DNA of 64,000 nucleotides from Gammaproteobacteria bacterium (GTDB taxonomy: Bacteria > Pseudomonadota > Gammaproteobacteria > Steroidobacterales > Steroidobacteraceae), in NCBI GenBank assembly GCA_025359205.1, contig JANYHD010000019.1, positions 124,001 through 188,000 of the forward strand, written 5' to 3'. The notes under the pieces are model-generated. The model had not been told where the DNA came from, did no database searches, and saw only the letters and a program-made list of their open reading frames with translations. The position numbers and the translations under genes are program-made. Below, one piece after another: positions 23,215-29,780 of this stretch (within the stretch, counting starts at the first letter, position 1; each line of letters begins with the position of its first letter).

Positions 23215-24666
23215 ATGAGGGTGACTCTCATGGTCCTGGCAAGCATCGTGGCTGGGTCTGCGGCTGGCGCGGTGCCGGCCGCTGCTGCGCCTGCCGTGAC
23301 GGCAGTCCCGAATCACGTCAACGTGCCGGTGCCGGCCAACGAGCGTGTCACGCTCCCCAATGGCCTGCGGCTGGTGCTGGTACCGCGCCACGATATTCCG
23401 CTGGTGGCTTTCAACCTGCTGTTGCGCGGTGGTGCGATGCTCGATCCGCCCGGGCGTGATGGCACGGCGGCGCTTGCCGCGGACCTGCTCACGCATGGCG
23501 CCGGCTCGCGCGACGCCTATGCCTACGCCGATGCGGTCGAAGGTTCAGGTGGCAACATCGACGCCGCGGCGCACGCCGAATTCATCCAGGTGCAGGGGCA
23601 GTTCCTCGCGCACGACAGCCGCCTCATGCTGGAACTGCTGGGCGAGGCCGTGCTGCATCCGTGTTTCGAGGCCGACGAGTTCGAAAAGCTGCGCGAACGG
23701 CGCATCGAGGAACTGAAGGCCGCAAAGGATTCCTCGCCGCAGGCGCTGCTCGGCAGTTATGGCCGCGCCATGCTGTTTGCCGGCCACCCCTACGGCCGCA
23801 CGGTCGGCGGCAGCGAGACCTCGCTCGCACGCCTCACGCGCGCTGACGTCACGGGCTTCTATGCCGCGCAAACCGGGGCCGACCGGGCGATCCTGGTCAT
23901 TGCCGGCGACTTTGATCCCGCGCAGGTGCGCCGCGATGTGACGGCCGTATTTGGCGGCTGGAAACGTGCGGCGGCACCGCTGGCGCCGCTCCTGCCCGCC
24001 GCGCGCGTCCACGGTCGGCGCCTGCTGCTGGTGGACTCCCCGGGCTCCGCCCAGACCTATTTCTGGATAGCGAATGTTGGCGTGCCACGCCACTACGATC
24101 TGCGGCCCGCGCTGAACATAGCGAACCTGGCTTTCGGCGGCAGTTTTGGCTCGATGCTTAATCGCGAGCTGCGGCTCAAGGCCGGCCTCACTTACGACGC
24201 GAGTTCGCGCTTCACGCGCGGCGCGGTGGCCGGCGAGTTTGCGATCAGTTCGTTTACGCAGACTGACAACACCGCGCGCGCCCTCGAATTGGCGCTCGCA
24301 ACCCTGGGGAAGCTCAAGCACGATGGCCTGGACGGTGCGGCGACGGACTCGGCGCGCAACTACCTGCTCGGCCAGTACCCGTTGGCTTTCGAGACGCCTT
24401 TCGATTGGGCGGTCGCGCTGGGCGACCTCGACTTCTACGACCTGCCGGAGAGCTACGTCGGCCACTTCGGCTCCGACCTCGTGGCGACCGATGCGGCTTC
24501 GGTCCACGCGGTCATCGATGCGGCGTTCCCCTCGCCGGATGATCTCGACATCGTGTTGATCGGCGATGCTGCCAAGATCCGGGAGGCGATCGCCAAATTC
24601 GGGGCGGTGGTCACGATGCCGCTGTCGGCACCAGATTTCTCACCGCCTGCCGACACAGCGCGTTGA
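23215..24666 (+). CDS. M16-family protein, non-catalytic partner
   Basis: A 483-residue secreted protein with a signal peptide (VLASIVAGSAAGAVPAAAA). The M16 fold is plain (LPNGLRLVLVPRHDIPLVAF; GGSFGSMLNRELRLKAGLTYD), but at the position of HxxEH it reads ALAADLLTHG, so the zinc ligands are absent. The C-terminal R/Y-type substrate site, ELRLKAGLTYDASS, is kept. This is the regulatory half of a two-subunit periplasmic protease with the product of the preceding gene. Start ATG 23215 lies 3 bp after the upstream stop. Confidence 0.9.
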   Translation: MRVTLMVLASIVAGSAAGAVPAAAAPAVTAVPNHVNVPVPANERVTLPNGLRLVLVPRHDIPLVAFNLLLRGGAMLDPPGRDGTAALAADLLTHGAGSRDAYAYADAVEGSGGNIDAAAHAEFIQVQGQFLAHDSRLMLELLGEAVLHPCFEADEFEKLRERRIEELKAAKDSSPQALLGSYGRAMLFAGHPYGRTVGGSETSLARLTRADVTGFYAAQTGADRAILVIAGDFDPAQVRRDVTAVFGGWKRAAAPLAPLLPAARVHGRRLLLVDSPGSAQTYFWIANVGVPRHYDLRPALNIANLAFGGSFGSMLNRELRLKAGLTYDASSRFTRGAVAGEFAISSFTQTDNTARALELALATLGKLKHDGLDGAATDSARNYLLGQYPLAFETPFDWAVALGDLDFYDLPESYVGHFGSDLVATDAASVHAVIDAAFPSPDDLDIVLIGDAAKIREAIAKFGAVVTMPLSAPDFSPPADTAR

Positions 24667-24735
24667 GCATGGGTCGAGTGGCCGGTCCAGTCGCTCCCCG
24701 ATGCTCGCTTTGTTGACCGGCCACTCGACCCATGC
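24667..24735 (+). repeat. Hairpin element A (21-bp perfect stem, 27-nt loop)
   Basis: The arms 24667-24687 and 24715-24735 are perfectly complementary over 21 bp. The loop is 24688-24714. The left arm begins right after the TGA of the M16 partner gene, so the structure would close the 3' end of that mRNA. Its loop core (24690-24712, GTCGCTCCCCGAT then GCTCGCTTTG) recurs, reverse-complemented, in element B with 21 of 23 matches. No T-run follows, so it is not a standard terminator. Confidence 0.85.
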
Positions 24736-24807
24736 GCAACCCGCCAAGTCGCGTAGTGCACAATCCCGCGCAGCCAGTGGTCTCGTGAGACGAGTAGTTG
24801 TCGGTCT

Positions 24808-24870
24808 GCTGCACTGACCTGGGTCAACACAGCGAGTATCGGGGAGCGACTTGACCCAGGTCAGTGCGGC
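24808..24870 (-). repeat. Hairpin element B (20-bp stem, 23-nt loop), inverted relative of element A
   Basis: The arms 24811-24827 and 24851-24867 are perfectly complementary over 17 bp, and three more pairs, one a G-U wobble, extend the stem to 24808/24870. The 23-nt loop (24828-24850) read on the minus strand is GTCGCTCCCCGAT then ACTCGCTGTG, differing from element A at two bases. Apart from the GGTC/GACC pairs nearest the loop, the stem sequence is unlike that of element A yet fully paired. Confidence 0.85.
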
Positions 24871-25169
24871 GGATCGACGACCGCGCGTCCCGCGATTCCC
24901 GACGCCTAACCTCATGGCAATGAATACATTGACCGCCGAATCATCGTCAGTAATATTCAGGCCATAGGTTCAAGGGTGCTGTTCGGCGCCAGGCGCAGAA
25001 CCGCTGGCGGTCTGGTCGCCCGGGCGGTTTCTCAGGTCGCTGGCCCGGCTTACCCGCCGCAAGTCTCTGAAATTATTCGGTTAATTGTCCGTTCCTGGCC
25101 TGCGCGGGACGGTTCGCCCGTGCGCGACTGCCGCAGTGAGCGGGCGCAGAGTTTGCAATGAGGGACCAC
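24871..25169 (+). promoter_or_regulatory. gltB promoter and leader region
   Basis: A sigma70-like promoter is visible: TTGACC at 24929-24934, 16 bp, then TAATAT at 24951-24956. Transcription would begin near 24963, leaving a leader of about 200 nt before the gltB start. The leader is GC-rich until 25068-25090, where AAATTATTCGGTTAATTG forms a short AT-rich island that could hold a second promoter. No riboswitch was recognised, and no open reading frame with coding character is seen. Confidence 0.5.

Positions 25170-29780
<4,611 letters not shown>

Follow-up and report, generated by a model that had tools for sequence, protein, structure and literature searches.

Between an M16 peptidase-family gene and a gltB-like ORF, the 64,000-nucleotide stretch of DNA analyzed here (the window) contains two inverted hairpins that share a loop and differ in their stems. 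The palindromic repeats known from bacteria take their names from conserved stems or feet; the present hairpins invert that rule, with a fixed loop and a free stem. What kind of element keeps its loop and lets the stem vary, and which strand is folded?

Two convergent hairpins at the M16-gltB locus

Examination of the sequence and an inverted-repeat search both recovered hairpins A and B (Table 1), so that the pair reported in the preliminary description, with a shared loop and different, paired stems, is real. Their loop cores, GTCGCTCCCCGATGCTCGCTTTG and GTCGCTCCCCGATACTCGCTGTG, are identical at 21 of 23 positions in opposite orientation. The TTGACC that pairs with GGTC beside each loop, previously listed as a further shared feature, is indeed common to A and B but forms only the innermost part of stems that differ elsewhere; the closing base pairs next to the loop vary from copy to copy.

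Table 1. Coordinates of the two hairpins and the flanking genes in the window
Feature	Position	Strand	Basis or remark
M16 peptidase-family gene, upstream	23215..24666	+	stop codon immediately before hairpin A
Hairpin A	24667..24735	- (apparently selected fold)	sequence, inverted repeats; covariance-model match G000:C41:148676-148726 on -
Hairpin A arms	24667-24687 / 24715-24735		21 bp, perfect
Conserved 23-nt loop core of A	24690..24712	-	reads GTCGCTCCCCGATGCTCGCTTTG on +; CA/TT separates arm from core
Spacer between convergent hairpins A and B	24736..24807	.	homology to congener G004 recognizable by eye
Hairpin B	24808..24870	+ (apparently selected fold)	sequence, inverted repeats, covariance model
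Hairpin B arms	24810-24827 / 24851-24867		17 perfect pairs adjoining loop, further pairs beyond
Conserved 23-nt loop of B	24828..24850	+	reads CACAGCGAGTATCGGGGAGCGAC; GTCGCTCCCCGATACTCGCTGTG core on - strand
gltB-like 1540-aa ORF, downstream	25158..29780	+	N-terminal sequence and neighboring small-subunit-like gene (glutamate synthase large subunit)

An orthologous A/B pair is present in the congener G004, where the B stem differs by one compensated pair and the A stem is wholly different and still paired. At the same site, G002 keeps B only, and G012 and G013 lack both hairpins, so that A and B predate the split between the source genome of the window (G000) and G004, and loss is common. The match of the two loops in inverted orientation would also be expected if B were a recent inverted copy of A that changed later, an origin raised at the outset; the G004 pair, with its nearly unchanged B and entirely different A stem, refutes it, convergent pairs recur across the whole family, and we give this origin practically no chance of being correct. 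A proposal that the outer arm was a pre-existing target, derived from the empty site in G012, was set aside because deletion accounts for that site equally well; G013 retains a possible loop remnant.

A dispersed family with a patchy distribution

Both hairpins belong to a family of ~75-nt DNA repeats that had not been described before and that is patchy across bacteria. In the 2.98-Mb source genome, the loop occurs 12 times at up to 3 mismatches, versus once for the reversed control, and nearly all of these copies are flanked by complementary arms that differ between copies; the genome thus holds about 11-12 hairpins, each with a near-fixed 23-nt loop, GTCGCTCCMCGNNAYNCGCTTKG, on a 20-26 bp stem of free sequence. 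The small family that had been suspected is therefore confirmed and is larger than first noted, with further copies with other stems found by a covariance-model search of this genome and its relatives.

An exact degenerate scan for the loop, applied to one genome per species, left open loop positions 9, 12, 13 and 15 (A/C, N, N and C/T, respectively) and 16; it fixed most of the other positions, whose apparent invariance is therefore partly due to ascertainment. At least 113 stretches were found in Pandoraea, Pseudohaliea, Halioglobus, Thermomonas, Lysobacter, Luteimonas and several MAGs; a few matches without complementary arms, for example in two Planctomycetaceae contigs, resemble chance occurrences. 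Copy numbers obtained with a covariance model of the complementary strand (the CAAAGCGARTNNCGKGGAGCGAC side of the loop) are highest in Halioglobus HKST-UBA220 (106), followed by Pseudohaliea rubra (66), Luteimonas (37) and MAG.332 (34); two other MAGs have 17 copies each, three genomes of Thermomonas or Lysobacter 7-9, the five carrier congeners 4-13 (including 11 in the source genome) and two Pandoraea 2-4. Many of the genomes compared are MAGs, in which palindromes may be misassembled. This model found zero copies in the congeners G003 and G013 and in Pandoraea G053, G056 and G064, and in a class-wide search of 369 evenly sampled genomes, with only 16 candidates per genome scored, the source genome was the sole match. 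It is from the carrier counts, the zero-copy relatives and the class-wide sample that the patchiness is deduced.

Rfam covariance-model scans yielded no family at the gathering score, only sub-threshold microRNA-like matches of the kind usual for any long hairpin. The few exact loop forms tried had no match in viral contigs, plasmids or phages, and literature searches on such hairpins returned no description.

Stems of free sequence and the folded strand

For most copies in the source genome, an orthologous counterpart exists elsewhere in its genus, g1, in another species (clpB-fmdB, lexA-imuA, a fabI-like gene, atpA-atpG and M16-gltB). Comparison of stems at orthologous sites (17 comparisons of 20 positions, or 340 cells, not all of them independent) gave 162 unchanged cells, 116 with compensated changes, 37 that are wobbles on the apparently selected strand and 25 with broken pairs. 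Among 45 diverse copies, 14 of 14 inner pairs change on both sides, with a covariation score of 1.285 versus 0.235 when shuffled and at most 0.263 when slid; these copies were chosen for having at least 13 of 14 positions paired, which inflates the paired fraction and not the diversity. Without such filtering, pairing amounts to 88-99% at positions 1-10 from the loop and about three quarters to position 24, and is near background by position 27. The arms measure exactly 26 bp in 15 of 15 scored Pseudohaliea copies, 26-28 bp in most Halioglobus, 24 bp in most Pandoraea and 23-31 bp in Xanthomonadaceae; they are more variable in genus g1, often 20 bp with weaker similarity further out, and MAG.332 copies differ, having 9-16 bp followed by an internal loop.

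The mismatches that do occur in the stems are strongly biased. Read on the GTCGCTCC strand, they comprise 75 A.C and 14 G.T collapsed events (binomial p = 3e-11); the excess points the same way in all lineages that have enough mismatches (Halioglobus contributes a single one). Known mutational strand biases in genes would push in the opposite direction. Because A.C on the GTCGCTCC strand is G.T or G.U wobble on its complement, the opposite strand, with loop CAAAGCGARTNNCGKGGAGCGAC, appears to be the one that is folded and selected, which corrects the preliminary description. For 143 of 155 copies, this complement is also the strand with the more stable RNA fold; when the same neutral loop is put in both strands, it still folds better than its counterpart (98 versus 28). 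Orthologous-site compensation, covariation among the 45 copies and the mismatch bias all lend support to the earlier proposition that a conserved loop on a covarying stem marks a single-strand structure under selection.

Coupled and species-wide changes in the loop

Loop positions 9 and 15 are coupled: about 160 of 164 copies, drawn from different lineages, have either A/T or C/C there, and at three orthologous sites they differ together. Every scored copy of G000, G002 and G001 has AT at positions 12-13; all G004 copies have TA, and those of G012 have TA or CA. Copies at shared sites retain their own closing pairs. This species-wide difference resembles concerted evolution. G004 and G012 are not sisters in a single-gene tree; other pieces are less clear, and the G004 assembly is fragmentary. 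Either the loops track a changing partner, or the loop alone is copied between sites.

Loop orientation is reversed at some orthologous sites, namely at clpB-fmdB in L092 (G012) versus L037, L177 and L225, and, at another site that differs between G004 and G002, in L100 versus L215, as if the inverted arms recombined occasionally. Near position 4202 of L159 (G002), the final 20 nt of the gene before the hairpin are repeated in inverted orientation 44 nt past the hairpin (19 of 20 positions), which suggests an inverted duplication or template switch centered on the hairpin.

Arrangement, genomic context and neighboring genes

Copies are single or form convergent pairs, with the GTCGCTCC strands facing each other, at a spacing of mostly 110-750 bp. 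The members of some pairs, such as the one at L172, have different loop types. Pair members in L076, L083, L109, L124, L175 and other Halieaceae and Xanthomonadaceae often differ at loop position 22, with a CGCTTTG or a CGCTTGG end.

Hairpins of genus g1 begin, with few exceptions, 3-60 nt past a stop codon; since the GTCGCTCC strand lies in the sense of that gene, the selected strand is antisense to the gene just upstream. Over all loci, a gene end is found on the GTCGCTCC-sense side only in 46 copies and on the other side only in 11, a test that was repeated with a strand-symmetric control and that is approximate in GC-rich loci, where automatic gene calls are noisy. Several copies lie inside operons or genes: a pair with ~300-nt spacing separates atpA and atpG in the ATP synthase operon (L030 1443-1909, G000:C6), a further pair is located between lpxA and an lpxB-like ORF, and one hairpin stands in-frame within the first 35 codons of an imuA/SulA-like ORF overlapping the lexA stop (L034 830-1576, minus strand, G000:C25), its loop being translated as SSLPDTRF. 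T-rich 7-mers beside the stems are no commoner than background on either strand, that is, there is no U-tract.

A linked transposase, reverse transcriptase or RNA-binding gene, which the preliminary description had envisaged, was looked for, and none was found linked. The Y1 transposase TnpA_REP (PF01797) is absent from G000-G014, Pseudohaliea and MAG.332 and present in some other carriers; Y2 transposases and reverse transcriptases are absent from G000 and most carriers, with none common to the carriers. RAYT, Y2 transposase and reverse transcriptase were accordingly rejected as mobilizers, these enzymes being missing from many carriers. The genes that recur among neighbors across loci belong only to ordinary large families (ABC, SDR, TonB receptors and aldehyde dehydrogenase).

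Competing explanations

On balance, we consider it probable that the family is a dispersed, non-autonomous REP/BIME-like hairpin repeat that would be recognized through its loop as a strand-specific fold. Each unit would combine the near-fixed 23-nt loop with a stem of 20-26 bp, whose sequence is free provided that it pairs, and selection would act on the folded single strand carrying loop CAAAGCGARTNNCGKGGAGCGAC. A dedicated trans-acting factor would read the loop, held in place by the stem, in a folded molecule that may be ssDNA or RNA; such recognition may first have spread the units and may still constrain those kept at orthologous sites. Two observations count against this explanation: the putative trans-acting gene was not found among the Y1, Y2, reverse transcriptase and linked-gene candidates, and in genus g1 and Pandoraea the units have stayed in place for a long time, which is unusual behavior for a repeat that is purely selfish. 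We nevertheless rank it ahead of a structured RNA element that would act in transcripts (3'-UTR, intercistronic or antisense) and serve the host at each site by protein binding, processing (e.g., by RNase III) or stability. The G.U-type wobble and purine-rich loop on one strand, the position 3-60 nt after stop codons, the in situ conservation in genus g1 and the atpA-atpG pair, where RNA stability or stoichiometry could be tuned, are all compatible with such a role, and a discrete 70-80 nt RNA or processed ends would then be expected on the CAAAGCGA strand. However, the apparently selected strand in g1 almost always runs antisense to its neighboring gene, the loop can face opposite ways at one site in different species (L092 versus L037/L177/L225; L100 versus L215), the large amplification and carriage by MITEs resemble a mobile repeat, and Rfam offers no match, so that an RNA element of this kind, as judged from sequence, seems rather doubtful.

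A factor-dependent bidirectional transcription terminator or insulator would fit the location directly after stop codons and the convergent, symmetrical pairs, as well as the position of the Pandoraea element, at which several element-free species have a hairpin with a T-run. Efficient termination is disfavored by the pairs at atpA-atpG and lpxA-lpxB, the in-frame copy in the imuA-like ORF and the lack of a U-tract on either strand; we find this function improbable, and the earlier suggestion of an efficient 3'-end or insulator module between the M16 genes and gltB gains no support. The hairpins might instead be a mutational artefact, long palindromes kept perfect by replication template switching with no selection on the fold. 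Strand switching or recombination is evident in the loop flips at orthologous sites and in the inverted gene-end duplicate at L159, but the near-fixed loop, its coupled positions, the sharp 26-bp arms and the A.C/G.T strand bias are left unexplained, making this account, if anything, even harder to credit.

More tentatively, the loop-recognized repeat could possibly represent a new class of hairpin elements that are strand-specific and have a recognition system of their own. A loop reader (an enzyme or binding protein) would then keep all loops within a genome evolving in step, through loop-only conversion or co-evolution, while the stems drift freely, each at its own site, under the pairing constraint. 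The strand signature indicates the strand that is apparently read, and the loop changes species-wide; the predicted factor would be missing from element-free sister species and would bind the folded hairpin by its loop. The loop with a 26-bp stem offers a simple substrate for binding that is already at hand, and finding such a factor could bring to light a new system for recognizing single-stranded DNA or RNA.

Relation to known palindromic repeats

Rickettsia palindromic elements are palindromic repeats able to lie in-frame in genes. Compared by description only, they resemble the present family in its in-frame copy in the imuA-like ORF, whereas this family is mostly intergenic and conserved by its loop. 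As in the attC sites of integrons, a folded hairpin would be the functional form and stem sequence is largely free, but conservation here resides in the terminal loop, there is no cassette array, and R'/R'' core boxes at the foot are present in 0-1 of 152 copies. The closest likeness is to REP, BIME and REPIN sequences, which are likewise dispersed intergenic palindromes, single or in inverted pairs, after stop codons and inside operons; their TnpA_REP (RAYT) transposase recognizes the folded hairpin on one strand only (PMC8266576). The differences are that the loop (23 nt) is fixed and the stem (~26 bp) free, that many carriers have no Y1 transposase, and that REP foot motifs in 152 copies are not above chance (GTAG, 8 and 15 versus 9 and 18 when shuffled; GGAG, 7 and 26 versus 26 and 34). 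By analogy, the family would seem to work like REP, a likeness of behavior rather than of demonstrated membership.

MITEs provide a further parallel. In MAG.332, the hairpin is the center of a ~140-bp element with terminal inverted repeats CTAGTGTGGCGTCCCGCAA, and in Halioglobus, a hairpin pair lies inside a ~460-bp element with terminal inverted repeats CTAGCAGCGTGTTGAAAA; both elements are short, with no ORF identified. Unlike in a single MITE family, these ends are lineage-specific and unrelated to each other, so that the hairpin is an inner module common to different MITEs, and the mobility that had been considered possible is supported in these two lineages. No terminal inverted repeats of the MITE kind were found at the copies in genus g1. 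Single hairpins between further, different terminal inverted repeats of 25-35 bp were observed in L132 (SJ574) and L163 (KLAP199).

Pandoraea species differ in whether a larger inverted unit occupies one particular site; several of those without it have the T-run hairpin there. This unit (L113 4363-5120 and the orthologous loci L079, L140, L153 and L246-L252) also contains a second hairpin type with an apparently conserved loop, CGTCCCCACGTGCTTCGCAWCTGCTGGKG, and a changing stem, which stands inverted at both unit ends.
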